Positions 22,184 to 60,173 of a DNA stretch of 64,000 bases are shown piece after piece. How positions within the stretch are numbered: position 1 is the stretch's first letter; every line of letters starts with the position of its first letter. Origin of the DNA: Ceratodon purpureus (taxonomy: Eukaryota > Streptophyta > Bryopsida > Pseudoditrichales > Ditrichaceae); NCBI GenBank assembly GCA_014871385.1, contig CM026426.1, positions 67,851,692 to 67,915,691 on the forward strand, written 5' to 3'. The position numbers and the translations under genes are program-made. The notes below the pieces were generated by a model. That model was not told the DNA's origin and ran no database searches. It worked only from the letters and a program-made list of their open reading frames with translations.

Positions 22184-25100
22184 CTAGAGATGATGACGTC
22201 GGTGGTGATTACGGTGCTGGTCACCGTAATGGCTCTCCTTCTGGATCCGCTGCGCCATGAGCTTGGACACCTCTCTTCTGACTTCATCATCTTTCCGAAG
22301 TAATTCAGTGTTATTGGAATGCTGGAAGGTTAGCCAATTGTGAATGGCTATCTTCCGAGTTCCCCTGAATTCGTTGATGAAGCATCCATTAGACCCGTAT
22401 AGAAAATGAGTCATAGCCATGACTTCCAGCATTCTCCACCAACGACTTGAGTGGTAACTGAGCTTGAGGTTGATCAAGAACTCCGGCCTCCTCTCATCAT
22501 AGCGGTTTACATTCACCACTACCTTAAAATCCTTGCAAATCCGAGCCAAAAACTTGGAGAAGATTGCTGCTCGGAAACACACAGGGTCGGTGTGTGTGTG
22601 GTGAATCTGCCAGAAGCCCTCATAGGCCGTGGCACAATTCAACGCCGTGTCAAATTGACCAGGGATTAGAGGCCAATTATACTCCACCGAGTCAATTAGA
22701 CTGTCTGGAGCCCACTTGAATCTTCTTCTACAGTCGCAGAAATGTCCATTTGTCCTCACAGCCTCAGGAGCCGCATCGGTCCAATTGACATTTACTATCT
22801 CCTTGTAGATCAAATCCCATAACCGCTCCTCCCTTCGAGACAGTCCGTAATCCTCCAGCAGCCACTCAATCGCAGTCCACGTGGGTAGCGGAAAAACCGC
22901 TTCATTGTCAAATAGACTTGCATAATTTCCCAAGTACTTGACTGTCAAGGGGGATCCTGTAACCGGTGTTCGAATAGACAGCCACCCCGGTGCCTTGTAT
23001 GTGGGTGGAAGCAAGGTCAACTCGACTTGAAGATCATGGCTAGTGATGAATAGGTGGTCCTTCTTCAACTCTCTCAAAGTATCCATGATCTGCTGCCTCA
23101 CCTTGTGCATCCCGTAGACATAGTGTGCCGTGGTCAACTCGCCCCTTTGAGCATAAGTTTCCCTCTCCAACACACATGACAACTTGACCAGGATGTTATC
23201 ACGATTATCGAACTCCTTGAGCAGCTCCTCTAAAGTTACTGTCCACTCTTTGAGTTCCTCACTTGGCACCTTCTCCGCAATATCCACCACCTGTCTACTC
23301 GAATCGCCCATCTTCACCAATCTGTAGCTCTCCACCGACATGTCAAGTTGACGTCTCTTCTGTAGCTGTTCTTCTAGAGTGGTGTAGTATAACACCACTC
23401 TTGCTCCCAAATGTCCTATTGGAAGAAACAACTTCTTCTGGTCGGTCAACTGGACATCGCCTCTTGCTATCATCTCACAAATGAGATTCTGGTGATTCGC
23501 ATGTCTACTAGACGCTGCCCATACTACATCAAAATCACCGCTGTCTAATAGACATCCCGTGTCCTTCCCCACCATAGCCAACCAGTTATCCCTTTGCAAC
23601 TCGTATGCATGGAAAAGGGAATAACTTGGTGGTGATGTCAAGTCGACCTTCCAAAGTTCTCCTCTCAACGCCTTGTTCTCCATCCGCGCTTCCTGCAACT
23701 GCTTCTTGCCAATCTCTATAGTACGGTGGTACAATTCGTTGTTGGCCTTCAACGTCGCGTAATCCGGGGGATTGACAACCTTCACCATCGGATTTTTCCT
23801 CAAGCTTTCCAACTCTGCCTTAAGCTTATTCTTCTCATTCCTCTCCTCGGTGCAGAGCTTGGAAATTGCAGTCTTGGCATCATTCACTTGGTCAAATTGA
23901 CGTTGAAGTTCGATGCGGTGTTGCGTCTCATCTTTATACAGCTCTTGAAACGACTTCCCAGTGTCAATCTCAATATCCGCAACGGTGGGCTTGGTCAATT
24001 CTTCATTTAATTCCGCCAAGTTAGCCAACTGTGTATTCAGCCTCCGTATATCTTCCACAGCTAGGTTGTTCTCAATGGTCAAGTTGAACACCGTACGCTC
24101 CAATTCCTTGATCTTCAACCGTAGCTGCGTTTCTCTCACCAATGCATCCTTGAGCTGTGCGGCCACCTCAGCTTGCGTGAGCTGCAACGCTGGTTGCCTT
24201 GCAGGTTCACGACGGTCCACTTGACTGGCTGCTCTTGCTCCTCTTCCCAACCTCGGGTTCAGTTCAAATAGACATTGAGGTAAGGAGTTATCCTCTACTC
24301 TCCTCTTCTTGACCTTGTTCCTTGAAGATGATGGTGTTGAAGCTCTCGGCTCTGGTTCTCTTGTCAAATTGAGCAGATTCGGTAGAGCTCTTGCTGGTCC
24401 AGTTGACACTCCTGCATCTCCCGGGTTTGGCGGCTTAGTCAACTCCGAGAGGTATATAGCACTGTAGAGAGTGATAGGATTCCGCGTGTGTTTCTTGCTA
24501 ATCTCCACCTTGATGTTGTCAAATAGAATATTTCCCCAACTCAATTTGACACCATTCCACCCGTAGATCGCGGCTGCTACTCCTTCCTTTGACATAATCA
24601 GAGGCCCCTTCTCTGCCAGCATAATCCTCTGATTGAAGAAAAGTAGCCACTCCTTCCACATCTCTTTTGTATTTGCCAACTTGTAGCCACTCTGTGTCTT
24701 GGCAGCTCTGTCGAAGATGTTGGTCAAATCGTCCTCTGAAATTCCGCCCACCTCTTCCATCAATAAGTTGTCTCCTTGATGCAACTTCAACATCTTGGAG
24801 ATAGGTGTCGAGTTGAAAGGTACGCTTCTTCCGTCCACCACAGCCATTCCTCTTGAGCCATACTCCGAAGAAGTCAGAAATTGATTGATCCTCCCATCAT
24901 CCTGCTCCTCGAAGACAACCATCACGAAGTCCCAGAGTCCTGCCTTCAAGAAATTCTCCCGATTGGCTTCAAATTGCGGCCATGCCTCCCGGTCAATCTT
25001 CTTCAACTCCAAGTGTTCAATTTGACGTCTTGGTCCACTTGACAGTTCCTGTTGCATTGCATCCGCAAGCACAGGCTTCTTTAACTTCTTGTTCTTCATC

Positions 25101-25219
25101 GCCTTCACCTTAGGCCGAGCAATTGGCCTTGTCAATTTAACTGATCCTGCAACTTCGGGTTGTGGTCTTTCTTGATCAGTTTCTCTGTCCTCTCTGTCAA
25201 CTTGACCTTCGTTTACCAT
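22184..25219 (-). CDS. Element A ORF3: 1011-aa accessory protein with N-terminal plant-transposon domain and coiled coil
   Basis: This intact frame lies between pol and the 3' LTR. Its basic start is followed at about residues 65-260 by a domain shared with ORF3 of B1, B2, C and D: FLKAGLWDFVMV, VDGRSVPFNSTPISKML, then KEWLLFFNQRIMLAEKGP and NPITLYSAIYLSELTKP. The small VxGxxVxFxxxxI core resembles the 'putative plant transposon protein' domain (Transposase_32-like); I assign that from memory. Residues about 340-530 are heptad-rich coiled coil (LRLKIKELERTVFNLTIENN). The C-terminal 450 residues include aromatic-rich stretches such as HYVYGMHKVRQQ and DFKVVVNVNRYD. It lacks catalytic motifs I know. 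No signal peptide or membrane segment is apparent, so an envelope protein is unlikely. Being uninterrupted while gag is broken suggests selection or youth. Confidence 0.8.
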   Translation of the reverse strand: MVNEGQVDREDRETDQERPQPEVAGSVKLTRPIARPKVKAMKNKKLKKPVLADAMQQELSSGPRRQIEHLELKKIDREAWPQFEANRENFLKAGLWDFVMVVFEEQDDGRINQFLTSSEYGSRGMAVVDGRSVPFNSTPISKMLKLHQGDNLLMEEVGGISEDDLTNIFDRAAKTQSGYKLANTKEMWKEWLLFFNQRIMLAEKGPLIMSKEGVAAAIYGWNGVKLSWGNILFDNIKVEISKKHTRNPITLYSAIYLSELTKPPNPGDAGVSTGPARALPNLLNLTREPEPRASTPSSSRNKVKKRRVEDNSLPQCLFELNPRLGRGARAASQVDRREPARQPALQLTQAEVAAQLKDALVRETQLRLKIKELERTVFNLTIENNLAVEDIRRLNTQLANLAELNEELTKPTVADIEIDTGKSFQELYKDETQHRIELQRQFDQVNDAKTAISKLCTEERNEKNKLKAELESLRKNPMVKVVNPPDYATLKANNELYHRTIEIGKKQLQEARMENKALRGELWKVDLTSPPSYSLFHAYELQRDNWLAMVGKDTGCLLDSGDFDVVWAASSRHANHQNLICEMIARGDVQLTDQKKLFLPIGHLGARVVLYYTTLEEQLQKRRQLDMSVESYRLVKMGDSSRQVVDIAEKVPSEELKEWTVTLEELLKEFDNRDNILVKLSCVLERETYAQRGELTTAHYVYGMHKVRQQIMDTLRELKKDHLFITSHDLQVELTLLPPTYKAPGWLSIRTPVTGSPLTVKYLGNYASLFDNEAVFPLPTWTAIEWLLEDYGLSRREERLWDLIYKEIVNVNWTDAAPEAVRTNGHFCDCRRRFKWAPDSLIDSVEYNWPLIPGQFDTALNCATAYEGFWQIHHTHTDPVCFRAAIFSKFLARICKDFKVVVNVNRYDERRPEFLINLKLSYHSSRWWRMLEVMAMTHFLYGSNGCFINEFRGTRKIAIHNWLTFQHSNNTELLRKDDEVRREVSKLMAQRIQKESHYGDQHRNHHRRHHL

Positions 25220-26774
25220 GGTTCCTTGTTTCTGTCTATTAGACTACACACTCAGCAGTTAGTTTGCTTCAGTCTTTACTTCGTCTAATTGAAATTTTTC
25301 TTGGCATTGACTCTCCCTGAAACTCTCGGCATTGTCTACTGGAACCTTCGGGAATTTTTTCTTTGTTATCCTTACCTAACTATTCTGTGAATCACTTCTT
25401 CCACTTGGCAATCAGTTTATGATATCACTCTCTATTTTTCTACATCACTATCATCATACATACATCACAACGCCAAGTTTCCGTTTCGTTCCTTTTGTTC
25501 TTTATCCTTACTTTCTCTCGGCAAATTGTGTTTTCTGTCTTGTAACTTCCTTGTCTACTGGACAGTCACTGTTTTCCAATACAAGAGTTCAATTGGACAT
25601 ACAAGACAAAGATGCGAAAACAACATGCAATCAACTTGACACAATCAGAATGGGTGCAATGAAACTCACCCGCAATGTGTCAACTTAACCCCGCACTGTA
25701 TGCCTCTCGGTATGCAATGCTTCGTCTTCCCCTTCTTCGACACTGTTTCCAATTGACACGCTTATAACGATAAAAAAACCCTGAGTCTAGTCGACCTAGT
25801 GTATTGTATCCAACTTTTGCTAACATCAATATAACAACATCTCTATCAACAACATTGTGTCCACTTAACCTAAGGTATCTGCAACTGTCCAAGGCTAATC
25901 AGGTTGTCCAATTGACAAAACAGTATGCAAAGTTGACAACAACTCACCTTCAATGTGTAAATGAAACGCACCTCGCTCCCCTTTCAATTGCTCGATTCTC
26001 TCACACACACCCGCTGTGATTGCAACAATACTCACTCGGTTTTGCTCCTTCCTTTCTCTCTCGGGTCTCTCGATATCTCTCACAGCTTAGTTACACAGAA
26101 TGCGACAATGTGACCCTCGACTAAACTGCTCTTCCTCTCAGTCTTCTCGGTATCTCACTCTCTCTTCATTCTGATCTCCTCATGATGCTCACTCTGTGTC
26201 CACTTGACAACTATCTCTCTCCACTCCTAAACCTGATCGCTCACAGCATAGCACTCTGTCTACTTGACAAAAAACTCACCAAGTCTCTCGCAGACTCACA
26301 GTTTTTGCTCTTCAAGAAAATGTGTTGTTTTGAGGTTTATGTTTTCCCAATTGGGGACGATGATGTGGTCTACTCGACTCGACCAGTCTCTTTTGTCTAT
26401 TTGACAGTTAGTGGGATCCTGCACTCATTCCCATGCTACGTGGTAATGATGTTCCCAGCCCCCATTTCCAGTAATCATATCAGCCGTCTTTTACTTACTA
26501 ATTGTGTTTTTCTGATAATTACTACTTACTCATCATTTTAGTTAGTGTCTACTTGTCAATTAGTAATTTCCATTTGCTTCGAAAAATTCTTAAGTTTAGG
26601 TTTTAAATTTGTTGAACTTGCTCTTTGTAATTTAATTTTTTAGATGGTTGGTTTTTTAATTTCTTCAAAATTTCACAGTTTCTAATACTTAAGTAGGACA
26701 GTTTTTATTTTATTTATTTTTTTTTTTTTAAATTTTTATACTTACTGCCCCCCTCTTAATTCTAAAACTTGTCC
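25220..26774. other. Element A spacer between ORF3 and pol
   Basis: No sustained coding frame. The strand-neutral TCHANTDGAC word continues to about 26403, then the sequence becomes T-rich (poly-T run near 26720). It may hold an ORF3 promoter or the pol 3' end signals. Confidence 0.6.
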
Positions 26775-29700
26775 TCAAGTTATGTATGGTTTCAGACGAA
26801 ACCCGTTATATCTTGTGGCATGAATTTTTCCTGCAAAATCTTGAAGTTCAACTGAACCATTGGGATACGATTTTAATACCCGATATGGTCCAAACCAACG
26901 CATTCTAAATTTTCCTGGAAATTTTTGAAATCGGCTATCATATAATAATACTAAATCGTTAGGGTTCAAAACTTTGGGTTCCAATTTGCTATCATAATAT
27001 GTCTTACGATGTTTTTGAATAGCTTCATTATTAAGATATGCTTGGGCTCTCGTTTCATCTAATTTTTCAAGCATATAAAGCCTATGTCTTAAAGATTCTT
27101 CATCTCCTAATCGTTCATCTAATGCAATTCTTAAAGACGGAAGTTCCATTTCAATTGGTAAAATAGCTTCTTGACCATAAACTAATTGAAATGGAGTAAA
27201 TTTTGTAGATACTTTAAATGCACATCGATAAGCCCATAATGCATCTGGTACTCTTGCATCCCAATCCGTATTTGAACCTTGTACAGTTTTAGTAATTATC
27301 CGACATAATATACCATTTGTTTTCTCTGTCTGACCATTAGCACGGGGGTGATACGGTGTAGATTTTCTATGTTTAATTGAATACTTTTCAGTTAGTTGTT
27401 CAATTATTTCATTAAGAAAATGAGTTCCCCGATCACTTACTAATTCTTTTGGACATCCAAATCTTGTAATAATATTTTCATATAAAAATTTGGCAACAGT
27501 TTTAGCATCATCGGTTTTTGTAGGTTGAGCTTCTGCCCATTTAGTTACATATTCAGTTGCAATTAATATGTATCTATTTCGACCATGTCTACTAGGTGGT
27601 TTTATAGGTCCTACAAAATCAATTCCCCATTTCTCAAACGGCGTTTGAGCTAAAATTGGATTTAAAGGCATTGCCTTTGAAGGTGTAGGTTTTCCAACTC
27701 TTTGGCATGGATCACATTTTTTGGTATATCTATGTGCATCCCCAAAGAGTGTTGGCCACCAATATCCGGATTGTAACGCTTTATGTGCAGTTACCATTCC
27801 GGCAAAATGACCGCCACATGCAGCGTCATGACAACCTTTAAGAATTAATGGTACCTCACTTGGATTTATACATCTCCGTAAAAGTCCGTCTTTACCCCTT
27901 TTATATAGAACTTTTGCAATTAATGTATATGGTTGAGATTTAAATATTAATTTTTGTTTTTGTTTATCTGTATAATCTTGAGGGAAGGTATTGGTACTCA
28001 AGTAATGAATAACGTCAGCATATTCTGCTGGAATGATATCCACTTGAAAAATATGCGCATCTGGAAAACTATCATCTATGGATTCTGGATTCACTTCCTT
28101 ACTAATCCGTGATAAGAAATCAGCATTGGCATGTTTTTTGCCAGGTCTTACATTAACCGTAAAATCAAATTCTTGAAGTAACAATACCCATCTAGCTATT
28201 CTCCCACTCAATTGTGGTTTATTAACCATATATTTAAGTGCATCATGATCTACATGAAAAGTGAACTTATAACCTAATAAATAATGTCTATATTTTTGGA
28301 CCGAATATATCATTCCTAACCCTTCTCTCTCCGTTACAGAGTAATTTTTTTCAGCAGCACTTAATTGTCTACTAGAAAAATATATAGGTCGATCATGACC
28401 TTTTCTGTCCTTTTGACTGAGAACACTCCCAATAGCATAATTTGATGCATATACATAAACTTCAAACGGTTTCTCCCAATCTGGTGGTATTAGAATGGGA
28501 GCATTACTAAGCCGTTTTTTAAGTTTATTAAATGCTTTTGTGCACTCTTCTGTCCAAACACCAGGAATATCGGTTTGTTTTGTTAGATGTGTTAAAGGAG
28601 CTGCCACTTCTGCATAAAAGTAGATAAATCTTCTATAATATCCAGAAGCTCCTAAAAATCCTTTAAGTTCTGTCATATGTTTAGGTATTTCTAATTTTTT
28701 GATAGCAGCTACTTTATCTGGATCAACACCTATACCTTCTTTTGAAACTATATGGCCCACTAATCGTCCACAAGGTACAGCGAATTCAGACTTGGCTGCG
28801 TTTATTGAAATACCATATTTTTCACATTGTTTGAAACATTTCTTTAAACATTTCTGGTGTTCAGCTTTAGGACTAAAGACACAAAAATCATCTAAGAAAA
28901 TTTCAATAAATTTTCTTAAATATTCCTGAAAAGCTGTTGTCATTGCTCTTTGGAAAGTAGCTGGTGCATTGCACAATCCAAAGGGCATGACATTATAAGC
29001 AAAGGTTCCCCAATCAGTTGTAAAAGTTGTTAAAGGTTTATCTTCTGGGGCGATTTGTACTTGATTATAACCAGAAAATCCATCTAAAAAAGAATAACAT
29101 TCATGTCCTGCTACACCATCAAGGATTGCATCCGTGAAGGGTAAAGGAAAATAATCTTTTTTAGTGACACTATTTAATTTTATGAAATCCTGACAAATCC
29201 TTAACTTCCCGTTCTTCTTAGGCACCACAACAATTGGAGATACCCACTCACTATAAGGTACTGGATATATAAAATTACATTCTAGTAGTTTATCTATTTC
29301 CTCTTTAACCATGAGAGAATATTTTGGGTTCATACGATATTGTCTTTGTCTTACCGGTTTTGTATTAGGTTCTAAAATAATTCTATGTTGATAGACTTCT
29401 GGAGGTATTCCTTTAAGGTCCTTATAAGTCCATGCAAATGCATCTTTACATTCTTTAAAGAATTTAAACCATTGTTCATATTTATTTGGTTTTAATCCTT
29501 CATAAATTCTTATGTTTTTAGGCTCCTCTGGAGTTCCCAAATTCATATCAATGCAAGTGCTTTTAACAGGACTTATATTACTACCTTTTATATGAGACAT
29601 GTTTTCCATTAATTCTTCAGAATCACTCAAATATTGAGGTTCTAATTCCGACTCAATTTCGGCTGTTACATTAAGTACTGGCGAATTTTCCCATGCTAGA

Positions 29701-30086
29701 ATAGCATCATCTGAATCTACTTTGTTATTCAGAAAGGAATATTCTCCAGTCCCTAAACATCTAAACTCAGGCATTTTCTCCTGTTCTACTACTTTAGTAC
29801 TTTCGCTATTTGAATCATATGAGGCTTCAGAAGTGACATCTGTGTCTTCTTCTTGAGTCTCACCATGATATTTAACTGGAAACATTGGTAATACAACCCG
29901 TTTCCCTTTTGCTTTTATAGTTAATGTTCCCTTTCCCCAATCATCTTTAGCTCTAGCAGATTTAAGCCATGGACGACCTAATAATATTGGGTATGTTGAT
30001 ATGGATTCACTCACCTTAAAGATTATATAATTAATCTTAAAGTTAAGGCCTCCTATAGTTGTAACTATTCCTCTCAAAATACCCAA
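26775..30086 (-). CDS. Element A pol: protease tail, reverse transcriptase, RNase H, integrase
   Basis: An 1103-codon frame. The first 80 residues end the protease region (PILLGRPWLKSARAKDDWG). Reverse transcriptase has SFLDGFSGYNQ, VMPFGLCNAPATFQ and the catalytic FLDDFCVF. RNase H follows: its first catalytic Asp is replaced by Tyr (VYVYASNYAIG; codon 28451-28449), while the later Glu (TEREGLG), Asp (HVDHDALKY) and ANADFLSR remain. Integrase shows the H-H-C-C zinc module ending CDPCQRVGK, then D-D-E residues in WGIDFVGP, LVSDRGTHF and ANGQTEKTNG, and a C-terminal GPY/F module ([16 protein letters not shown]). No chromodomain follows. A one-base deletion around 30112 separates this frame from the protease start in gag. 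The RNase H change predicts a defective enzyme. Confidence 0.93.
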   Translation of the reverse strand: MGILRGIVTTIGGLNFKINYIIFKVSESISTYPILLGRPWLKSARAKDDWGKGTLTIKAKGKRVVLPMFPVKYHGETQEEDTDVTSEASYDSNSESTKVVEQEKMPEFRCLGTGEYSFLNNKVDSDDAILAWENSPVLNVTAEIESELEPQYLSDSEELMENMSHIKGSNISPVKSTCIDMNLGTPEEPKNIRIYEGLKPNKYEQWFKFFKECKDAFAWTYKDLKGIPPEVYQHRIILEPNTKPVRQRQYRMNPKYSLMVKEEIDKLLECNFIYPVPYSEWVSPIVVVPKKNGKLRICQDFIKLNSVTKKDYFPLPFTDAILDGVAGHECYSFLDGFSGYNQVQIAPEDKPLTTFTTDWGTFAYNVMPFGLCNAPATFQRAMTTAFQEYLRKFIEIFLDDFCVFSPKAEHQKCLKKCFKQCEKYGISINAAKSEFAVPCGRLVGHIVSKEGIGVDPDKVAAIKKLEIPKHMTELKGFLGASGYYRRFIYFYAEVAAPLTHLTKQTDIPGVWTEECTKAFNKLKKRLSNAPILIPPDWEKPFEVYVYASNYAIGSVLSQKDRKGHDRPIYFSSRQLSAAEKNYSVTEREGLGMIYSVQKYRHYLLGYKFTFHVDHDALKYMVNKPQLSGRIARWVLLLQEFDFTVNVRPGKKHANADFLSRISKEVNPESIDDSFPDAHIFQVDIIPAEYADVIHYLSTNTFPQDYTDKQKQKLIFKSQPYTLIAKVLYKRGKDGLLRRCINPSEVPLILKGCHDAACGGHFAGMVTAHKALQSGYWWPTLFGDAHRYTKKCDPCQRVGKPTPSKAMPLNPILAQTPFEKWGIDFVGPIKPPSRHGRNRYILIATEYVTKWAEAQPTKTDDAKTVAKFLYENIITRFGCPKELVSDRGTHFLNEIIEQLTEKYSIKHRKSTPYHPRANGQTEKTNGILCRIITKTVQGSNTDWDARVPDALWAYRCAFKVSTKFTPFQLVYGQEAILPIEMELPSLRIALDERLGDEESLRHRLYMLEKLDETRAQAYLNNEAIQKHRKTYYDSKLEPKVLNPNDLVLLYDSRFQKFPGKFRMRWFGPYRVLKSYPNGSVELQDFAGKIHATRYNGFRLKPYIT

Positions 30087-30091
30087 TGGTA

Positions 30092-33000
30092 CTACTCGAC
30101 TTTGATCTCCATTCTTAAGATAATAAGAGTGGAAGTCATATGAGTTAATCCTAGTTCTTCCATAGTGTCAACATTCATTAAGTTGACACTGGAACCACTA
30201 TCTACTTGGACTCCTTCAATTAGAGAACCATCTATGATTACATCCACAGTTGGTGCTCCCGGGTCCAAGGATATATCATGGACATCTACGATTTTACTCC
30301 TTTTTCTAACCAACGAAGAACTTAGTTCACCTCTACATTTAGGTGCTATTGCTAACAATTGCCTCGAAGAAATGTCAGGTTGGATTTCATCCATATTTGT
30401 TAAGATATCATATGGGTTCATTCCCTCTGACAATTTCATTGTACGATTATATTTCCTTTTCTTAGGAATAGTTGGTGTTTCTTTTAGTTTCTTTTTAGGT
30501 GGTCTATAAAACGTAGGTAATGTATTTGAAGTACTAGGCAAGTTAGCAAAATTATTTGGTAAATCTTGAGGTAATACTGTAGTTTCTTCAACTGGTTGTT
30601 TACCCTTATCCTTCTCCTTAGGTTCTTCTATAGGTATTGTTTTCTCACTATTTATAGGAATGTTTGGAGGTATTAAGGGAAATATTGGTTTAGGTTTTAC
30701 AACATCCTTCTCCTTAACTACTTTTGAAAATGTGTTGTTTTTTCTCACTCTACTACTTCTATAGTCACTATCAGAGCTACTATGTTGATCACTTTCAACC
30801 ATAGCCTTTTTGGCCTGTGCACGTGTTATATAAACCTCCTGAGGTTTATCTCTCTCATATTGTGTGATTTGATTCACATTCCTTGAGTTTTCAATTTCAC
30901 TAAATTGAACACTCTTTACAGGTGCTGGAGCTGTACAATTATTTGCTATATGACCACTTTGTTTACACCTCCCACATAAAGGATTATATCCAATTTGTTT
31001 CTTTGGATTTGGACAATCTCTCGCCATATGTCCTAATTCCTGACAGTTATAACACACTAAGTGTTTTCCTTTCTCATGAGTTCCATATCTATGGGTATTT
31101 GGATTAGTAGGCGGTCCATTCCACACAGGTGCGGCATTATAAGTATCATTCCACCTTGGTCTCCCATCCCCAGGTCTATAAGGTGGTCCTACATTTGGTC
31201 TAGTAAACGGACGTTTTGAAGTTACACTATAAGGTGCTTTGTTATTATTTGTCCCGTTTGCCTGCAAATTAGAACTCACTGCAGCTACTACTTTCCCCAA
31301 ATTCCAACATTTAGATACGTCATGAGGTCCTCCACAAAAACTACATTTAGGTTTATTACTAAATTCCCCACCTATCGGAGTAGAACACTCATTGGAAAGA
31401 TGTCCATGTCCATTACAATTAGTGCACCACATATTGGTACGCATGTTTGTAGGTTTTGAACGTTTATCTTTCCCATGAGTTATTTGTACCGATAGTTCAT
31501 TTAATTTTTTCTCTAATTTAGTAATGTTGTTCATTAATATATAATCTGTAGGGGCTTTAATGGCTAAGGGTTGAGGATTCATGACTGTGGGATTTGAAGG
31601 ATAAGTCGAAACTGGTAGTTGTGATCTAGCTGGAGGTAAATAAGGATAGTGATCACGGCCATAAGCGTCCATGCCTTGAGCATGATCATAACCTTCTCTC
31701 CTAGGTGGATATACTTCTGCATATTGTGCAAAATCAGTATTTACTCTAGCCTCTTCCCAAGTTTTAGCTTGTGTATAAGCACTAGCAATGTCTTGGGGGT
31801 TTCGTTCCTTTAAGTAAATTCTTAACTCATCAGGCCAAACCCCTCCTACAAAGGTACATGCTAATACTTGATCAGTTAACCCATGATTTGTCCATCTCTT
31901 CAGAAGAGCATTAAATCTTGTATAATAGGAATCTATACCCTCATTTATACCCATTCTTATAGTTCGAAATCTGTCGATTAACCCTGGTATAAATGATCTA
32001 GGTCAAAACCTATCAAGAAAAGCTCTCCTTAAATCTTCCCATCTTGTGGGTACGGTTAGCAATTGGACATACCATTCATGAGCATCATCAAGTAATGTGC
32101 TTGGAAAAGTGCTTAGATATTAATGTCCAGGTAACTGATTTGCTTGTGCAACCACTCTAAATCTTTCCAAATGTCTATCGGGGTCAGACCCTGGATATCC
32201 ATGGTACATAGGATATGGTGCTATGTTTAAAATCCTTTGTTGTGCCATGATATTAGTTGGTAAAGTTTGTGGTGGAGGTGGTAGTGGTGGTGGGGGTGGT
32301 GGAGGTCTAGGATGAGGAGTTGGAGGTCTGGGAGGAGGTCGTGAAGGAGGTGAAGAAGAAGGTCTTAACAATTCTTCTTCACTTGTTTCTCTCCTTGTAT
32401 CACTACTCTCACTACTACTACTCCTAGAGGAATCTCCTGATGAAAATCTCCAACAATTTATCCCTTCCCAATCTTCATTACTTTCATCATTAGATGGTTC
32501 ATAGGGATTGGTAAAAGGTTGTATAGTTGGAAATGTTTCTGGAAGAGATACCTCATAAGCTACTTCTTCATCATTCCACTCTTTTCTATTGTCTTCTAAT
32601 GAAACTTCCCTTATGTATGTTTCAATAGGGGTTGTGGTTTCTACCTCAGTACTATCTTCAATATCATTAACCCAACTCTCTATACTTGTAACAAAGGTTT
32701 GTACAGCCTCGTCAAGGTAAGGTTTTGGTGTTTCAAAATTAGTTTGGGTTGGTGTTGAGAATTCAGGTAGGTTAGAAGGTTCTCCAACCTCTGTGGTAAA
32801 TGGATTCTTCAAAGAACCCTCAAATTCTGAGGAAGAAGGTGTGACTAATTCTTCTACCTTCTTTCACTTTTCAGAATTAATTTGAAGTGGGTTTACTTCA
32901 CTTGAAGATCCCCAGGTTAACCTCCTAAATGGTGGTGAGTGACAGCATAGATAATGCGATCTTCTCAAACCTTCCTCTGGTAATTCTAAATCCTCATTCT

Positions 33001-34868: not shown

Positions 34869-34871
34869 AAA

Positions 34872-48955: not shown

Positions 48956-48956
48956 T

Positions 48957-48974
48957 TGGCGACCATGCATTAAG
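48957..48974 (+). promoter_or_regulatory. Element C candidate primer-binding site
   Basis: TGGCGACCATGCATTAAG begins one base after the 5' LTR, the normal place for a site complementary to a tRNA ending in CCA. It is not the tRNA-Asp or initiator-Met site and I could not assign the tRNA. Confidence 0.5.
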
Positions 48975-50232: not shown

Positions 50233-53034
50233 ATGGACAGAGAATACCCAGGGTGGGACAAGGAGGAGATAGCCAGGAGACAAGCAGCAGAACGGTTGGC
50301 AAGATACGAACTCAGAGAGCAAAGAGCAGCAGCAGAAGTAGGAAAACCAATGGGAGGACAATTGAGTTCAGAAGAAAGTATAGCTAAAGGGAGAACCAGG
50401 GACCTGATTGATATGGACCTGGTAGGAGAGAATTCGAGCCAGGAAACAATACTTGGAATAAGCAGGAGGACAGGGTCAGCAAGAGGAGAACCTGGCCCAA
50501 GCTTCAAGAATTGGCAGGAGGATGAGGAAGAAATTCGGAAGTATGAGGGACATCCACTATCATCCAGGACCAGCAGGAGGGAATTCCCAAGGCCAGGTGA
50601 AGGAGACACACAGCATTGCTGGAACCCCCAGACCAGAATGGCATCAGCATACGACCATTTCCAGGAGGAGGAGAAGAAAGGAGGCAGCAGACCAGACACA
50701 CCGAAACCAGGGGAGAAAACACCAGGTGATTTGGTGGAGACATTGGAAACGCTGAAGAAGAAATTGGAGGAAGTTAACACTGGGGACAGAGTTCCGACAG
50801 GAGCAGCAGCACTGTCAGAGATGTACAAAACGGGTAAGCCCACACAGGTGAATCCCAGGAGACCAGTGGTACATTTTGCACAAGAACAGTTCCAAGGAAT
50901 GGAGCTGGACGAAGATGAGGAGGACAGAAGACAACTGGAGCAGTTCAAGGCCCAACAGCAGGCTAGAAGGCAAGCAGAGAGAGAACGAAGAAACCAGCAG
51001 GCACCAGAGGACCTGTACAGGAGGCAGATGGAGGAGCTAGGCCAAGCAGCCCGGTTCAGAGAGACAATGGAGGCGTGGGAAGAAAAGAACCGGGAGGAGA
51101 TCAAACTGAAGGAAGCCATGAAACTATGGCAGGAAACAAAGAGGCTTGAAGAGCAGGACTAGGAGAAGCAGAGACAGGAGGCTCTCAGAACCTGGCAGGA
51201 GACTCAAAGGAGAGAGGAGATGAAGCAGGCAGCAGAGAGAAAAGAAGCAATGCAGCAGGACTTGCTAAGACAGGAGGCTCTACGATTATTACAAGAGGCA
51301 CAGAGATTGGAGGACCAGAAGAAGAAGGAGGAAGAGATGAAAGAAGCTACCCGGCAGGCGACCCTTTACAAATGGCAGGAGATACTGAGGGAAGAGAGCC
51401 AGAAACTCCAGGCCAAACCAAGGGCGGATCCGTGGGCAGCATATGACCATTCAGTGGTTCAGGGGGACAGACCAGGTCAACTGAGGGAAGCAGAATTGAT
51501 GGGAGCACCCTACACTACATGTGCTTTACTAGGAAGGCCAGGGACAGACCATTTTTCAACCTCGAGGACTCGGGTGAGCCCAACAGGAGGAGGAGGAGCA
51601 CATTCTACCTATGTGGATCACCTCACAGGTGATGAGTACAGACCAGAAGTCAACAGAACTGCCTACTGGCCAAGCGGAGGAGCAGAAGCCGGAGCAGGAG
51701 TTCCTGACATAGGAACAGGATACAGAAGACCAGCGGAGATAATGAGAGGGATGCCATATGACACTAGGCCACCTGCAGGAATAGGAGTACCAGGAGATAC
51801 AGCGGATAGCAGTTATCCAGTGAGGCATGGTCCACCATCCTACCCACCAGCTGCTAGACCGAGAGTACCCCCAGTGACAGGACCAGTCCTTGTGGGACAG
51901 AGGAAGCCGCTGACCTACTCCAAGTACAAGGAGGGGACAAATCCAGATGCTCACATACGGCAGTTTGAAAGGACCCTATGGCACAACGGAGAAACTGATG
52001 AGCAGGTGATAATCAACCTGATGGGTACCACTTTGCTGGACAAGGTTGGTGCATGGTATGAGAATTTCCTGGAGAACCATGTCTACTGCTCATGGGAGGA
52101 TGTTAAAGCTGCTTTCAGGAGGAGGTACAGAGACCAGACTACTGATGAGGCAGTATACAGGGAATTGAAGTCCTTCAAACAGGGGGACAGAGAGAAGGTA
52201 CAGGACTACTATGATCGGTTTATGACATTAATTAAATGTCTACAATCTGATCCAGGAGAAGGGTTCCGAATCACTAACTTTCGAGCAGGACTGCTGGAGT
52301 ATATCAAGATCACTACCAGTGTGGCACCCGTCAGGAGTTTGACAGAGTTGGTGGATGCAGCTTTGAGATGCGAGGAGAACTGCACTGATTCTAGTGGTAA
52401 ACCCACTAAGATCGAAGTGAGAAAGGTGGAGACCAGCAGTAAGGCAGCCACAGTGACCAGGAAGGAACCAGACCAGGAGGCTCCAAGGAAAGCCTGTGGT
52501 ATTTGTAAGAAGCTGGGCCATGATGATAAGAACTGTTGGTACAACCCAGCTAACCAGAGGGGGTCAGGTGCAAAGAAGGAAGGAGAAGAACATGTTGGTG
52601 TCAATGAAGTCTCTGCTTCTAAACCAGTAGGAACTTACAGTTACAACCAAGGATACCAGCGACCACCTAATCCCAGGGCAGGCAGCAGCCAACAAAGGAG
52701 TTATGGTGATCAACCACCAAGTTGTTTCTTGTGTGGAGGAGTAGATCACAGAAGCTGGAACTGCCCCAAGAAGGCACAATGGGACCAGTTTTTGGCAGAC
52801 CAAGAGAAGACCAACAAGAAGCAGGATCACCATGTCAGTAATGTAGAGATTGAGCTAATAGAAGAACCTGAAGAGTCAGTGGGGGTAGCTACCATGACCA
52901 GAGCCCAGAGGCTAAAGGCAGGACTGTTACCTATCCAGGATGAATCAAGGGAACCTGAACCAAGAAAGGCCAGAACGAAGGAGGACTGGCAGGAGGAAGA
53001 GAAAATCAGGAAATCGATGCTAGAAACCTTGTAG
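50233..53034 (+). CDS. Element C gag (in-frame TAG at 51160)
   Basis: Starting at ATG 50233, the frame first encodes a highly charged Gln/Glu/Arg coiled-coil region (residues 1-420, for example QQQARRQAERERRNQQ), with a TAG at 51160-51162 inside it. The capsid-type domain lies at about residues 575-720 (PDAHIRQFERTLW, SWEDVKAAFRRRYRD, VQDYYDRFMTLIKCL), matching Retrotrans_gag. Two CCHC knuckles follow, CGICKKLGHDDKNC and CFLCGGVDHRSWNC. The frame ends with TAG at 53032 just before the protease region, which continues in the same register. ATG 50233 is chosen because TGA closes the frame a little upstream. The protein packages element RNA; the TAG codons are decay or readthrough sites. Confidence 0.85.
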
Positions 53035-53124
53035 GAAATCGAGCTTCAAGAAGAGCAGGAGAAGGCAGAAGCAGAGAAACTCAGGGCGACTTTAAAAACA
53101 GCAGAGAAGGAAGGAGATGGTGAA

Positions 53125-54018
53125 GTGCTGGATAATGAGTGGGCAGGATTCCCAGACTCAGATACACTAGCCTACAGCACCAAGACCGTCAAGCAGGAAT
53201 TGGGCGCAGAAGGGGAGACCAGTACAGAGAACAACCAGGAGCAGCACTATGCAACTGTAGTTGGAAGAAAAATACTGGACAGTCCCATTACAGTCTCACT
53301 AGGACAGCTGCTGAAGATGGCTCCTAATTTGACAGATTTTGTGAAGGCCCACGTATTCCCAGAAATGATAGCAGACCAGCCAAGTCAGCGAGAGCCAGCA
53401 CCAAGCAAGAAGCCAACAACCAGTCAACCAGGTAAGACCGATTTAATAGGCAGTCTGGCTATTGATGTTGACAGAGAACTGCCGGTGTTAACTGTGCAGA
53501 CAGGCAATGGGACTCTGGAGAATGTCCTACTGGATGGAGGATCAGGTGTGAATCTGATAACTGAGGAGGAGCGAAAAAGACTGGGCCTCAAGGACTCACA
53601 GCCTGCTCCTTTCAGATTAAGAATGGCGGACCAGACAGTCGTTGACCCGGTGGGGATGATTCGCAATGTGAAAATTCACATCCACGGTATTCCTTACCTT
53701 ATTACCTTGACTGTTATTAAAAATAAGGAAGTTAACAAAGCCTATAGTATGCTGCTAGGCAGACCATGGTTGATTGATGCTAAGGTAAATCACGATTGGG
53801 GTAACAATCTGGTTACCATCAGAGGTAATGGTACTGTAAAAACCATCTCAGTCAGTCAGAGGAAGGGGCCTAGGCCTAAGTTACCTGAAGTCCTAGTCTG
53901 CTATAATTTTACTGAAGGACTGACAGATGAGGAGGAAGCCTTGTGGTTAGCTAGTGAGCAGGACTTGCTGGCCGTTGGGACAGTCACCCTGCCTCGAATG
54001 GAGCAGAACAAGGACTAG
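53125..54018 (+). CDS. Element C aspartic protease region
   Basis: In the same frame as gag, open from 53035 with the first ATG at 53125. The retropepsin active site is VLLDGGSGVNLITEEE, with Asp-Gly-Gly in place of the common Asp-Ser/Thr-Gly; FRLRMADQTVV and SMLLGRPWLIDAKVNHDWG follow, the flap and C-terminal landmarks of gypsy proteases. It would cleave the Gag-Pol polyprotein. The frame ends at TAG 54016, after which the RT frame continues in register. Confidence 0.85.
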   Translation: MLDNEWAGFPDSDTLAYSTKTVKQELGAEGETSTENNQEQHYATVVGRKILDSPITVSLGQLLKMAPNLTDFVKAHVFPEMIADQPSQREPAPSKKPTTSQPGKTDLIGSLAIDVDRELPVLTVQTGNGTLENVLLDGGSGVNLITEEERKRLGLKDSQPAPFRLRMADQTVVDPVGMIRNVKIHIHGIPYLITLTVIKNKEVNKAYSMLLGRPWLIDAKVNHDWGNNLVTIRGNGTVKTISVSQRKGPRPKLPEVLVCYNFTEGLTDEEEALWLASEQDLLAVGTVTLPRMEQNKD

Positions 54019-54147
54019 GACAACAGAAAGGACCAGGACGACATCAAGAGCCCGACAAAGAACCAGGACCAGGACCAGGGACAAGAGGGGGGATCACAGC
54101 GAGCCTACCCAGACCATTTCTACAACTTTGAGGAGGGCAACATTGAA

Positions 54148-55887
54148 GTGGATGAGACACCAGCCCGGGAGAAAGTGAAGAAATTGAAGATAGCATCCTG
54201 GACCTTACCAGAGTCGAAGCAGTTGAGAAAAATTAACCTTGGAACAGAGGAGGAGCCCCAGTATCTGAAGATTAATGCAGCCATTAGTCCAGAACAGGCT
54301 ATTGAAGCAGAGGCTCTGTTCAGGGAATTCAAGGATGTATTTGCCTGGACTTATAAGGACCTGAAGGGTATCCCACCCTCAATTGCACAGCACAGGATTG
54401 AGTTGGAGAAGGATATCCCACCATCCCATCAGGCTAGATATTGCATGAATCCAAATTATGCCAGTATTGTGAAGCAGGACTTGGATAAACTGCTTCAGGC
54501 TGGATTCATTACACCAGTAGAGGATGCTACCTGGTTATCCCCTGTTGTTATTGTTCCTAAGAAAAATGGGAAGTTGAGAATTTGTATTGATTTTCGCAAA
54601 TTGAATGCTGCCACTAAAAAGGACCCGTATCCATTGCCATTTACTGAGGAAGTGTTGGATTCTGTGGCAGGACATGAGATGTATTCGTTTCTGGATGGGT
54701 ACTCCGGGTACCACGAGATTCAGATAGCACGAGAGGACCGGCACGAGACTGCTTTTGTAACAGATTGGGGAGCATTTGTGTGGATAGTCATGCCCTTTGG
54801 GCTGAAAAACGCACCTCCCACATACCAGAGGGCAGTAAACAAAGCCTTTCGAGATTTTATTGGTGATTTTATGAAATTGTTTTTAGATGATTTCAGTGTG
54901 TACAGTGACATTATTAGCCATCTGGTCAAGCTGAGAAAGTGTTTTGAGAAATGCCGTGAGTATGGAATAAGTTTAAATCCTGAGAAATGTTTACTACTGG
55001 TCTTCTCTGGTATTATACTGGGCCACATTGTGTCTAAGGAAGGGAAATTTCCTGATCCTAAGAAAATTGAAGCAGTAGAGAATATGCCTAGACCAGAAAA
55101 GCCAGGAGATGTTCAGGTTTTTAACGGTTTTGCCCAGTTTAACAGGTGCTACATTAAGTCGTATGCACATATCATGGAGCCAATCACCAGGCTCATGAGG
55201 AAGGCCGAGGAGTTCATCTGGTCAGACCAGTGTGAGCAGGCATGGAAGAAAATCAAGGAGCAGTACCAGAATGCGCCAATTCTCGTTGCACCAAGATGGG
55301 ACCTGGAGTTCCATGTGCATACAGATGCTTCGAATATAGCAGTAGGAGTGATGCTGGCCCAGAATCCAACAGGGAAGTGTGACCAGCCCATTTCTTATGC
55401 TAGTAGACTGTTGAATTCTGCTGAGAGGAACTACAGTACTACTGAAAGGGAAGCTTTGGCAATGGTTTATGCTCTAAACAAGTATAGGCATTATCTGCTG
55501 GGAAATAAATTTGTTTTCTATGTTGACCATATGGCACTGGTGTATCTGGTCAATAAGCCGCAGGTGTCAGGACGGATAGCAAGGTGGCTACTGCTGTTTC
55601 AAGAATACGATTTCACAGTGGTGTATAAGCCAGGAAAGAATCATGGTGTGGCAGATGCGATGTCAAGACTGCCCAACGGAGAACCAGCAACTGGTGTCGA
55701 GGACCAGACCAAGGATGCAAGTTTGTTTTATATTAAACCAGAATGGTTAGAGGATGTACGTTCTTACCTGAAATCTGGTGTTGTACAACAGGACTTGTCT
55801 AAGGAGGAGCAGAGGAAGCTGATTCTGAAGTCACTGCCCTATACACTGGTCCAGGGAGTTCTGCACAAGCGAGACATGATCTGGTAG
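54148..55887 (+). CDS. Element C reverse transcriptase and RNase H
   Basis: Open from 54019 in the gag frame; first ATG at 54148. RT motifs in order: [46 protein letters not shown], catalytic FLDDFSVYS, and [16 protein letters not shown]. RNase H carries all acidic residues: [30 protein letters not shown] and GVADAMSRL. The frame stops at TAG 55885 because of an apparent one-base loss about ten bases earlier; reading in the next frame from there gives [13 protein letters not shown] and leads directly into integrase. Confidence 0.93.
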
Positions 55888-55907
55888 TCAGGAGGGTACT
55901 AGACCCA

Positions 55908-58322
55908 ATGCAGGCAGAGGTGGTGATGAAGGAGATGCACAATGGAGTAGCAGGTGGTCATTTTTCACAAGATATTACCAGCAGGAAGATACTGGACGCC
56001 GGATACTGGTGGCCAGCGATACATCGGGATGTTGCAGAATACTGCAAGGCGTGTGACAGATGCCAGAGAGTGGGAGGCATGGCAAATACTGGTTTAGCTA
56101 CCTTAGTGGCCAGTATGCCAGCAGAACCATTTATGAAATGGGGATTGGACTTTATCGGGCCCATTAAACCAACAGCATCCAGAACAGGGAACATGTACAT
56201 ACTCGTGGCTACAGATTATGCTACCAAGTGGGTGGAGGCAAGGGCGCTCAAAACCAACTCAGCAGCAGTTACTGCTAAGTTTTTATATGAGCAGATCCTT
56301 TCAAGATACGGGTGTCCCTTGACACTTGTAAGTGACCAGTGTTCTCATTTTATAAATGAGGCTATAGAACACCTGGTGGAGCATTTTCTGCTCCAGCATC
56401 GTACATCAACAACCTATTACCCCCAGGGTAATGGCCAGGCTGAATCAACAAACAAGGTGATTGGTCACCTACTGAGCAAGCTGGTCAATGATAGGCGAAC
56501 AGATTGGGATGAGCATCTTCATACTGTACTACTCTCCTACAGGACTGCTTACAAGGTGACTACAGGTTACACACCATTTCAACTGGTCTATGGCTTACAT
56601 CCGTTAATGCCAACAGGGTACATAATACCAACCAGGAAGACCAGCTCAGAAATTGATTATACACCAACCAGGGTGTTGGCAGCCAGGATTGCGGATTTGG
56701 AGCAGATGGACACTTCAAGACTAGAGGCCCAGGAAGCAGTAGGGGCCAAGCAGTGGAACAGGGCACTTTGGAGCCAGCAACACTACAAACGAAAGGATTT
56801 TCAAATAGGCGATTATGTGCTCTGGTATCCCAAGGGCCATAAGGAGCATGTGGGGAAATTCAAAAGTCGGTGGTTTGGACCTTATAGGGTCCAGTACAGG
56901 CTCCCCAACAACACTGCTCTGCTGGTCCAGGTAAAAAATTTTGAACCTGATCCAGTATTGGTAAACATCAATAAGTTAAAACCATACAGATTTTATGAAA
57001 AGGAAAACAGGGTAGTGGAAACCAGGACACCAGGACATTTGACCAGAGGATTGGTCAACGAGCAAAAGGGGGATAGTGTCCAGTCAGGGTTAGAAAATAC
57101 AGGGATAAAAAGTGAAAAAAACTGTAAAGAAGGAGGCAGTGAAGCAGTAAAACAGCAGAAGGATAAAGAAAACAGTGAGAGAAAAATGAAAAATCAAAAG
57201 AAAAATAAAAATGAGCAAGAGGAAGGACAGAAAGCAGGGGAAGGAGACATGGAGGAGATGATTGAAAAAAATAAAGGGAATGAAAAAAATAAAGAAGTAG
57301 TAAAAAAAGAAAAAACAAAAGAAAAAGAAGAGTTAGTGATAGTGGGATGTGGAATGATAGAAGTCATAAGGGGGAGAGAAAAAGGAATGGGACAGTTTAG
57401 AGGGCGGCCCATTAAGAAGGAGGACGGACAGAGTTCATCCGAACAGGATACTTCATCCATCCGACGGGAGGGAAGACTGGATGAAGTCCGAACGGGACTG
57501 GAGGAGGACCTTGGACCGGGTCAGGGTATTAGGGGTTTAGAGCCGCAGCCAAGGAGAAGCGCCGACATTGCATTCTGGAGTTGCCAACAAAATAGGGCGA
57601 GCAGCGTGATTTGGAGAGAGGAAGAGGCGAGAGAAGGCCAAGGTGAGGAAGTTGAGAGAGAACTTAGAGCAGATCATAGCACAGGGATAGAGAACAGTGA
57701 GGCAGATACTTTCGGAGAAGCTAGGGAGAGAGAGTGGCGCAGTTTGGGGCAGGTAGGTGACTTCACTCACACGAGAGGACCAGCGCAGTTCAACCCGGAA
57801 GAGAGGGCGGCGCAGTTTCGGGAAGAAGAACAGCAGCAGCAGCGGCTCCAAGAGGAGCAGCGGCGCCGACACACCAAGGAGGAGCATCAGCAGCAGCGGC
57901 TCCAAGAGGAGCAGCGGCGCCGACACACCAAGGAGGAGCATCAACATCAGCGGCTTCAAGAGGAGCAGCGGCGCCAACCCACCAACAAGGAGCACCAGCA
58001 GCAGCGGCTCCAAGAGAAGCAGCGACAGCTCCGAGAGGAGCAGCAGCGCCAGTTCCAACTCAAGCAGCAACAGCTCAGGGAGGAGCAACAAAGCCAGCTT
58101 CAAGAGAAGCAGCGGCGACTCTGGGAGGAACAACAGTGCGAGTTTCAAGAGAAACAGCGGCTTCTACAGAAGGAGCACCAGCACCGAATCGAGGAGAAGT
58201 ACCGGCAGCCTGATCGGGGAACTCTTCACTGCAGCGGGTTGGAAACCCTAAGGGGCGGCGACAGACAGGAAGAAGAAGGACACCGAGGCAGGGAAGACGA
58301 GGATCAACAGGAGGCTGTATAG
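55908..58322 (+). CDS. Element C integrase with long Gln/Glu/Arg-rich C-terminal tail
   Basis: The zinc module H-x6-H...C-x2-C is seen in [12 protein letters not shown] to [12 protein letters not shown]. The D-D-E residues are in [20 protein letters not shown] (Cys where Gly is usual) and [10 protein letters not shown]. The GPY/F module is [20 protein letters not shown]. Residues from about 365 onwards are not integrase-like: a Lys/Glu-rich tract, then four 18-residue repeats of the type [18 protein letters not shown] and further Gln/Glu/Arg helix. No chromodomain is visible. The frame ends at TAG 58320 but the same register stays readable beyond. Integrase inserts the cDNA; the tail could be a coiled-coil tether or a run-on into a separate gene. 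Confidence 0.9.
57831..58020 (+). repeat. 54-bp coding tandem repeats in the integrase tail
   Basis: Four imperfect 54-bp copies encoding [18 protein letters not shown]-type units, followed by more degenerate Gln/Glu repeats to about 58200. Confidence 0.85.
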
Positions 58323-58976
58323 TTCAGAAGCAGTGGAAGGGAGATTCGGTTCATAGAGGAAGAACAAGGGCAGCAACATCAGGGCCAGCAAAGACATTCC
58401 ACTCAGGTATTTTCCACGACAATTGAGTTTTGGCGCACATTGTAGATTGAGCACAGGAAGAGCAGGGAAGGTCATACTCCGAATGAGGGAACTATAGAGC
58501 CAAGGGGACTGGTCGGATCGGTGGAAAGGGAAAATCAGGTCAGAGAAGGAAGGGGAAACAGAGTGAAAGCAGAAGGAGTAGAGGATCACTTCGGGACTCA
58601 AGAACCGCGACTGACTTTCCAAGATTGGGCCAGGGAGGAGAATAGGGAAGGAGAAAAAACAGTAGGAGGGACAACCAGAATACAGGGAGGAACGATGGCG
58701 ACGGAAGGAACCACAGGGCAGAGGGAAGGAAAGGAGCCAGCCCAGAAGCAGGGACAGTCTAAGAAAGGGAACCTGCACCAGTACATGAAGGGACCAGAGA
58801 CAGCAGGGCAGGTCGAAGAGATGGAGATACAGGAGGGAGAGGAGGCTCCGCCACAGCCAACTCAAGCTACCTCCGAAGGGGACCGAAGGCCAGCACCAGT
58901 CTTGGAGCCAGAGCTGAAGAAAGCAGGAGCAGGAACCCGAAGAAAACAGACGGAGGCCATGGCCAGAGCTCCTTAG
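58323..58976 (+). pseudogene. Element C in-register continuation between integrase and ORF3
   Basis: The integrase frame continues with TAG at 58443 and ends at TAG 58974. The product is Glu/Arg/Gly-rich and without motifs (first ATG 58521). TAG 58974 is six bases before the ORF3 ATG, in the same register. It is a linker or the end of the integrase tail. Confidence 0.5.
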
Positions 58977-58982
58977 CAAATC

Positions 58983-60173
58983 ATGGTAACCAGGAAGAAG
59001 AAGAGGGGAATGAAGCTTACCTTTCTTCCCCTAGAACACTGGAAAACTTGGAGAGATCTGAAGGACGATGTCTGGGCTGAAAAGGTAAGCCTCGGGAATT
59101 TCTATGAGTATACATGGCCAACCCCTAGGACAGAGTTAGTTGCAGATTTTATAGAGGGTTTCCAGTACATAAAAGGGGAGAAACCGGACAATACCACCCC
59201 GATCAGAGCCTCGGTGAGAGGAATTCCAGTGGAGATCACCGCATGGACTATACAGCAGGCATTAGGGCTAGAAGGGAGCAAGATCGCACCAAGTCCCAAG
59301 GCTAACGGAGAATTGGACACCCGACACATGAAGCAGTTTGGTCTCACCCGAGCAGATCACACTTCTGATGGGACCAGGATCAAGGGGTTCGATGAACCAT
59401 ATCAAGACAGAGTCAAGGCACTGGTGGAGATCATGTGCGTAAAGAAGAAGTCATTCTATGCTAGCAACGAACTGCTGGAAAACATATACCAGGCCGTGAG
59501 GAAGGGGGACCATAACTGGGCCCCATTGATTTTGTCCAGCCTACGCCGAATGCTGATTCGGGTCCACACCAGCGAGACCAGGGAGATCAAAGGGGGCGAA
59601 CTTATAGATGCTCTGCTGAGAAACTGGTTCCCAGATGAGGAGCAGTATGTCGACCCGGAGCCACGCCAGGAGGATGAGGAGGACGAGGACCAGGATAGCG
59701 AGGGTCAGCCTGATATAACACCTATCAGGCCGGAGGCAGACCTTCCACCAGATGGAATTAGCGAGGAGGGGACCACACTACGACGACTGACCAGGGGCAG
59801 AAAGGACCAGGAGAAGAAAGCCGAGGAGCAGCATTCTCTACCCCCACAGCAGGAACGAGGCACCAGGAAGCGCAAGAGGAAGGTTCAGTCCTCCCCCTCT
59901 ACACAAAAAGATCAGGGGGCCACCTTCAAAAGATTGAGGAGGCAGAACAAGCAGCCAAGGTATAGGGACAGCACTACAGGATCTCTGGATTCAGTGGAGG
60001 CAGCAGAAGTTGAAAGAGGCGCTATCACCTCCAAGACTAGGCGAACCCCAAAAGCCAAGGCTAAGGAGCACCAGAAGGGAGGGACAGAGCAGCCACCAGC
60101 TGAGACACCTAGGGAGGCGTCCAGGACCTTACATGGAGAACCTCTCAGCATACCGGAGAGACCAGTAACCTAG
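58983..60173 (+). CDS. Element C ORF3, N-terminal part
   Basis: Begins MVTRKKKRGMKLTF. The shared ORF3 domain spans residues about 10-220: FYEYTWPTPRTELVADFIEG, SVRGIPVEITAWTIQQALGL, KQFGLTRADHTSDGTRI, FYASNELLENIYQAV and LIDALLRNWFPDEEQ. The VRG-x-PVEIT-x-x-x-I core resembles the Transposase_32-like domain described from plant transposons (assignment from memory). An acidic stretch (QEDEEDEDQDSEGQ) and a Lys/Arg-rich region (GTRKRKRKVQSS) suggest nuclear targeting. The frame closes at TAG 60171; the following ORF4, one frame over, holds the coiled coil that in element A belongs to the same protein, so a frameshift near 60170 has probably split it. No enzymatic motif is visible. Confidence 0.75.
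   Translation: MVTRKKKRGMKLTFLPLEHWKTWRDLKDDVWAEKVSLGNFYEYTWPTPRTELVADFIEGFQYIKGEKPDNTTPIRASVRGIPVEITAWTIQQALGLEGSKIAPSPKANGELDTRHMKQFGLTRADHTSDGTRIKGFDEPYQDRVKALVEIMCVKKKSFYASNELLENIYQAVRKGDHNWAPLILSSLRRMLIRVHTSETREIKGGELIDALLRNWFPDEEQYVDPEPRQEDEEDEDQDSEGQPDITPIRPEADLPPDGISEEGTTLRRLTRGRKDQEKKAEEQHSLPPQQERGTRKRKRKVQSSPSTQKDQGATFKRLRRQNKQPRYRDSTTGSLDSVEAAEVERGAITSKTRRTPKAKAKEHQKGGTEQPPAETPREASRTLHGEPLSIPERPVT

Follow-up and report, generated by a model that had tools for sequence, protein, structure and literature searches.

A palindromic DNA word under selection beside the third open reading frame of a moss retrotransposon

Can a plant retrotransposon encode a protein that reads a word repeated in its own DNA? 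This question is raised by a 64,000-nt stretch of the Ceratodon purpureus genome (contig CM026426.1, positions 67,851,692 to 67,915,691 of the forward strand; the whole stretch is hereafter the window). A reading made from the sequence alone (hereafter, the sequence-only reading) had proposed that five elements in it, named A, B1, B2, C, and D, share one family of third open reading frames (ORF3s), whose proteins protect their elements from silencing in the manner of the VANC proteins of Arabidopsis VANDAL transposons. The core result of our computational follow-up, measured in element A, is a selected DNA word spatially coupled to a selected third ORF.

Element A is a young long terminal repeat (LTR) retrotransposon, of Ty3/gypsy type because its pol domains follow the order reverse transcriptase, RNase H, integrase. 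Its two LTR copies show 6 differences in 1629 aligned bases and are adjoined by a purine tract and a primer-binding site, TTTTGGCGCCGCTGCCGGGGA, which resembles tRNA-Asp, as in the Athila/Tat group. The gag, pol, and ORF3 frames all lie on the minus strand, and the insertion site is within ORF3 of element D. As the sequence-only reading had placed it, an intact ORF3 lies between pol and the 3′ LTR. The parts of A are as follows:

20429..36494, minus strand: element A, LTR retrotransposon, nested in element D
20429-22051 and 34872-36494: 3′ LTR and 5′ LTR of A, respectively, with TG...CA ends
20424-20428 and 36495-36499: 5-bp target duplication of A, AAGCC
22184..25219, minus strand: ORF3 of A, intact, 1011 amino acids (aa)
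26775..34871, minus strand: gag-pol and leader of A, with RVT_1, RNase H, rve, and integrase zinc-binding domains and CCHC knuckles

Word counting in A returned 13 copies each of GTCTAATTGA and GTCAAATTGA, compared with ~0.1 expected, and a dyad search and a symmetric-mask search both arrived at GTCNANTNGAC, a dimer site of the form GTC-N-A-N-T-N-GAC built from the half-site GTCHA. Specifically, the unbiased symmetric-mask search of 20428-26774 yielded 34 non-overlapping copies of GTCNANTNGAC compared with 6 in each of three shuffles. Exact copies numbered 35 in this interval (3′ LTR, ORF3, the pol-ORF3 spacer, and the gap between LTR and ORF3), with a further set in the 5′ LTR:

21240..21983: nine exact copies, upstream half of the 3′ LTR
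22066..22131: three exact copies, gap between the 3′ LTR and ORF3
22649..25206: fifteen exact copies, within the ORF3 coding sequence
25234..26405: eight exact copies, pol-ORF3 spacer
35683..36426: nine exact copies, 5′ LTR (counted in 34872-36499; the 3′ LTR positions shifted by 14443)

The 35 words are spread over ~6.3 kb, starting at the pol end, taking in ORF3, and reaching the upstream half of the LTR; the spacing between words is irregular (16 to 636 bases). No exact copy was found in the 8.1 kb of gag-pol and leader or elsewhere in the window outside A; at a tolerance of one mismatch, density reached at least 10 copies per kb in the word-rich parts and stayed at or below 0.5 per kb elsewhere in the window. 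GTCNANTNGAC is enriched far beyond chance and confined to the LTR-ORF3-spacer module, and the dispersed palindrome that had been claimed for A proved much stronger than stated. Across the genome (362,488,568 bases in 151 contigs, with the window on C6, of 110,524,308 bases), two words 16-46 bases apart occurred at 590 places compared with 2 for a reversed-pattern control; the same places were found on both strands, and the count takes A copies and other loci together. The 15 words inside ORF3 use all three frames (4, 8, and 3) and thus do not represent a peptide motif. The two inner positions are complementary in 12 of 35 words, with 12.5 obtained by shuffling, i.e., without covariation; the half-sites vary independently, which speaks against an RNA stem.

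Conservation of the word was analyzed in 14 further copies of A, of which 12 were aligned from the LTR to the spacer (L015 and L019, incomplete or interrupted, were excluded); 11 of these 12 belong to a diverged subfamily with a spacer ~80% identical to that of the window. Each of the 12 carries 35-38 exact words. Among the 11 diverged copies, word-core positions were 99.4% identical in the spacer (other positions, 80.5%) and 99.9% identical in ORF3 (others, 92.0%), and third codon positions of ORF3 were 99.8% identical inside words compared with 82.8% outside. Judged by the majority base of these copies, only 2 of 280 core columns differed, compared with 28.3 (standard deviation 4.9) predicted from comparison columns of the same region, codon position, base, and cytosine context (2000 draws, minimum 14). 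The differing columns numbered 0 of 88 in the spacer and 3′ non-coding sequence (15.6 expected) and 0 of 41 at third codon positions (7.2 expected). Because core columns and synonymous sites are conserved beyond matched columns, the word is maintained by purifying selection on the nucleic acid, synonymous sites included. The claim of a family-specific word maintained beside ORF3 therefore holds for A.

ORF3 of A is itself conserved and selected as a protein. A genome search listed 46 matches (45 of 170 candidates were scored), and 30 of the 39 full-length matches among those listed lack an in-frame stop. The ratio of nonsynonymous to synonymous divergence (dN/dS) was 0.077-0.092 in 10 diverged copies, at a dS of 0.28-0.33; the close copies L009 and L019, with few changes, gave 0.81 and 0.27, respectively, and L011 and L022, whose ORF is broken, were excluded. 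As a separate observation, dS in the ORF3 region (22184-26774) is approximately fourfold that of pol (0.08 in two of the same copies; 26775-30086), so the ORF3 module may be older or may have been exchanged between lineages with gag-pol shared; the difference suggests exchange.

The protein contains basic clusters at residues 44 and 304. The coiled coil claimed for ORF3 has a counterpart in A in the form of a coiled-coil-like stretch, indicated by composition and by helices at residues 349-521 in an untrustworthy structure prediction. Both models obtained fell below usable confidence (predicted local distance difference test scores of 29.9 and 35.9), and sequence searches against solved structures returned a single match at an E-value of 0.34 in one case and none in the other.

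Next, we asked whether the ORF3s form one family, as the sequence-only reading had it on the basis of a common N-terminal domain. Homology was evident between C and D (blastp E-values of 9.8e-23 and 2.3e-21; hhalign probabilities of 99.4 and 98.8) and between B1 and B2 (2.7e-9; 97.1). Comparisons of A with B or C by hhalign, using the window copies, were no better than reversed-sequence controls, and enlarging the alignments to 13, 14, and 17 sequences (A, B, and C, respectively; among the 14 B sequences, L061 and L064 begin in a different frame) gave E-values of 0.22 for A-C and 0.47 for A-B, with local reversed controls at 0.12-0.56. A weak hint of homology between B and C/D was confined to the RG-x-P stretch, with E-values of 0.053 (B-C), 0.022 (B-D), and 0.037 (B1-C/D); reversed controls, run for B-C only among these three, gave 0.41 and 0.56 locally and 0.08 and 0.059 globally. 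The shared domain was thus not borne out for all five, and by these comparisons the five ORF3s sort into three families (A; B1/B2; C/D), among which homology could not be demonstrated. Their common layout of N-terminal domain, basic linker, and coiled coil may reflect either common descent or convergence.

The B elements differ in build from what had been supposed:

36991..40522, plus strand: B1, solo LTR of 3532 bases, with TG...CA ends and a 5-bp duplication, AGTTG
37492-39192, plus strand: ORF within the B1 LTR, with an in-frame TAA at 37864
42666..43004, plus strand: B2, remnant of a second B-type ORF

B1 can be aligned exactly to other copies over 36990-40523, and copy L049 is flanked by a duplication of its own, TCCTT. 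On C3, three B copies lie 9.37 kb apart, and gag, pol, and integrase frames are present in 8.2 kb of the interval separating two of these copies; with the unit on both sides of these frames, B1 is an LTR of ~3.5 kb carrying its own ORF, which encodes 629 aa in intact copies. Matches to B were mostly on C6 (81 of the 98 scored among 1,608 candidates). We therefore rejected the description of B1 as an ORF3-only parasitic unit, and trans-acting or parasitic copies are not needed as an explanation.

For B, the claim of a dispersed palindrome was reduced to the weaker word CCGG, which makes up 28-35% of CG sites in B elements (36991-45800 and the gag-pol of L054) compared with 5-7% elsewhere in the window. 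Specifically, the share was 58/205 in B1 and 121/349 in the gag-pol of L054, and 13/266 in A, 21/288 in C, and 38/652 in 1-20428. This is a family-wide bias across the whole element, conserved less clearly than the word of A. The fraction of CG kept in CCGG, relative to the other two classes, was 0.851 (0.735 and 0.649) with the window as reference, 0.684 (0.683 and 0.536) with L052, and 0.804 (0.683 and 0.586) with L053. We rejected an equal rank for CCGG and the A word: CCGG does not exceed trinucleotide expectation, and its retention advantage is mixed. Two families with two words, A and B, are compatible with co-divergence of protein and word.

Elements C and D, together with a neighboring remnant, occupy the following positions:

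48336..61922, plus strand: element C, LTR retrotransposon, with LTRs at 48336-48955 and 61303-61922 and duplication ACCAA
58983..60173, plus strand: ORF3 of C, a separate ORF in this copy
36551..36990, minus strand: first part of D ORF3, interrupted at one end by the B1 LTR and at the other end by A
20105..20428, minus strand: second part of D ORF3, past the A insertion
45751..47401, minus strand: RNase H-integrase remnant of C type, with 64-66% protein identity to C

ORF3 of C was found where it had been expected. In intact relatives of C, it is part of a single open frame of ~3,600-3,700 aa shared with integrase; matches were 60-100% identical, and 14 of the 105 scored (from 710 candidates) lie in open frames of at least 3,600 aa. 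The long frames of C-family relatives link pol to the ORF3 domain and a coiled-coil-like tail by way of a segment rich in Q and E; in L047 (1-5205), one such frame leads from integrase via a glutamine-rich segment into the ORF3 domain and the tail. The ORF3 domain is strongly conserved among C relatives. Dyad and symmetric-mask searches of C-family loci revealed no dispersed dyad that stood out, and the A word is absent from 23 C-family loci; a family-specific word beside ORF3 thus found no counterpart in C, where the ORF3 of relatives is in the integrase frame. A candidate palindrome in C was rejected, as its copies of TAGGAGCAGTAAAACA belong to a repeat local to the LTR.

The two pieces of D ORF3 were confirmed by tblastn (36868-36563 and 20428-20105) and by homology to C, the A insertion having split the frame. 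The remnant at 45751-47401 probably belongs to D. Elsewhere in the window, we noted a long run of AG dinucleotides (45386-45533) and short tandem duplications at 5976-6107, 18917-19054, and 49059-49232 (66, 66, and ~104 bases, respectively).

How might word and protein of A be connected? We propose, with a probability of roughly 0.4, that A works like VANC by self-recognition, with the word array and ORF3 acting as one module. The dyad word suggests a DNA-binding protein that recognizes A, and it is very probable that a dimeric, sequence-specific protein would bind the word on DNA, because of its dyad symmetry and independently varying half-sites. Whether the reader would be ORF3 itself, dimerizing via its central coiled coil, we consider an even question; the array spans the ORF3 gene and goes no farther than pol, which makes ORF3 the foremost candidate. 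Many bound sites would then mark the element's own DNA, either countering silencing or activating the LTR, as VANC does for VANDAL. We infer both the reading of the word by ORF3 and an anti-silencing effect, and anti-silencing rather than plain activation seems doubtful as the form of this last step.

A comparison of one pair of full copies bears on methylation. In gag-pol, transitions affected 17/214 CG compared with 84/2593 CHH sites (odds ratio 2.58, p 0.0016); in the word region, they affected 27/348 CG compared with 118/2023 CHH sites (odds ratio 1.36, p 0.18). These substitution counts lean toward, and prove nothing about, a word region less CG-methylated than gag-pol. The A word also forms an array at another locus:

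L067 (G000:C1:21062600-21065600), 1399-2570: tandem array of ~1.2 kb, 35 exact A words among 38 slots

The 3 kb read at L067 contained no ORF longer than 90 codons and no tblastn match to ORF3, pol, or gag of A. Because it shows a short resemblance to the A LTR (22 bases identical, 69 at 75%), the array may be the LTR of a distant relative. An extended form of the proposal, which we regard as unlikely, would make ORF3 the element's own sequence-specific anti-silencing factor, binding the element's palindrome in the LTR, the spacer, and its own gene and keeping A unmethylated, with parallel systems elsewhere (B, with CCGG) and ORF3-less arrays such as L067 exploiting the factor in trans.

Several observations weigh against self-recognition. 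The CG difference between the two regions falls short of significance (z 1.81, from a single pair of copies). Profile searches of A ORF3 returned no match to a DNA-binding family, 15 of the 35 words are coding, unlike VANC targets, and the B and C families lack the arrangement of word and ORF3 seen in A. Conservation is likewise qualified: the LTR core columns alone differ at 2 of 72 compared with 2.8 expected, the signal coming from the spacer and ORF3, and the 11 diverged copies share kinship, so that the comparison is essentially one split. There is also word turnover. L010 has 38 exact words, of which the window shows 33 unchanged, 4 with one mismatch, and 1 with more; the window in turn has 33 one-mismatch sites, and at 5 of them the word base is present in the subfamily.

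The words could instead be sites for a host transcription factor, gathered into an enhancer array that drives the LTR, with ORF3 doing something else, and we give this account serious if tentative weight. Nine words sit in the upstream half of the LTR, the array at L067 comes without a sizable ORF, and palindromic repeats in Sirevirus LTRs and before the envelope gene have been read as regulatory (PMC2829016); an enhancer, however, has no need to extend across 3 kb of protein-coding DNA and to break off where pol begins to give way to it. Action of the words in RNA, through packaging, export, or stability, would account for their position only 3′ in the genomic transcript (after pol to U3); this position coincides with the 3′ end of full-length RNA, provided that transcription starts past the upstream half of the LTR. 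We consider such a role highly improbable, as the strict dyad, free center, and independent half-sites fit a DNA-binding dimer and the inner positions show no compensatory pairing.

It is also conceivable, though distinctly unlikely, that ORF3 belongs with envelope-like or particle proteins (the aORF-3S kind, as in Athila) and has nothing to do with the word. Its location between pol and the 3′ LTR would fit, as would the single open frame of C-family ORF3 and integrase and the resemblance, below threshold, of an N-terminal piece of A ORF3 to PF20167 (E-value of 0.047, 14 bits, cut-off 45), a profile that is also matched by a 3′ ORF of a sunflower Athila element (PMC11728184). This match is weak, however: PF20167 did not match the whole A ORF3, 2 of 9 copies reached an E-value of 0.094 at best, and there was no match for the B and C proteins, for which Pfam gave only sub-threshold matches, mostly coiled-coil-like. 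An envelope-like ORF3, which the sequence-only reading had named as contrary to its proposal, is unsupported, with no transmembrane-like segment in the A, B (L052), or C proteins (19-residue hydropathy windows, threshold 1.6; hydropathy only), and such a protein would leave the conserved word unexplained.

The proposed self-recognition by A can be set against known systems. Like VANDAL (PMC5735166), A combines a short, family-specific, strongly enriched word, dense in the element's own DNA, with an element-encoded, non-enzymatic extra protein as candidate reader, and its word recurs in a tandem array elsewhere in the genome (L067). VANC words are non-coding, tandemly repeated, and in the same orientation (PMC5735166), whereas the A word is a dyad, irregularly spaced and partly coding, with the tandem arrangement found only at L067; moreover, A is a retrotransposon and VANDAL a Mu-like DNA transposon. 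Sireviruses (PMC2829016), likewise plant LTR retrotransposons, have palindromic words in their LTRs and next to their third ORF, and the CCGG of B recalls their CGG-CCG core; they are, however, Ty1/copia elements, whereas A is of Ty3/gypsy type with GTCNANTNGAC, which also fills the ORF3 coding region. With Athila-type additional 3′ ORFs and PF20167 (Transposase_32; PMC11728184; PMC7264820), A shares a sense-strand ORF that follows pol and precedes the 3′ LTR, and a weak profile match; it differs in that this match is far below the curated cut-off, there is no transmembrane-like segment, and a dispersed word array is not described for Athila in the available portions of these papers. The closest parallel among retrotransposons lies in the Sirevirus motifs, and the precedent in VANC.

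Sequence-specific self-recognition against silencing has been described for VANDAL DNA transposons (PMC5735166), and modulation of methylation by ORFs of Athila and Tork retrotransposons is called an open question (PMC12844716). In the literature searched, as far as its available portions extend, no retrotransposon protein that reads its own word turned up. In element A, a word maintained by selection and a conserved candidate for its reader share one module of ~6 kb, which exists in dozens of copies, most of them intact. With both in one module, third-ORF function is accessible to a binding assay, and the role of plant retrotransposon third ORFs, long open, becomes directly testable.

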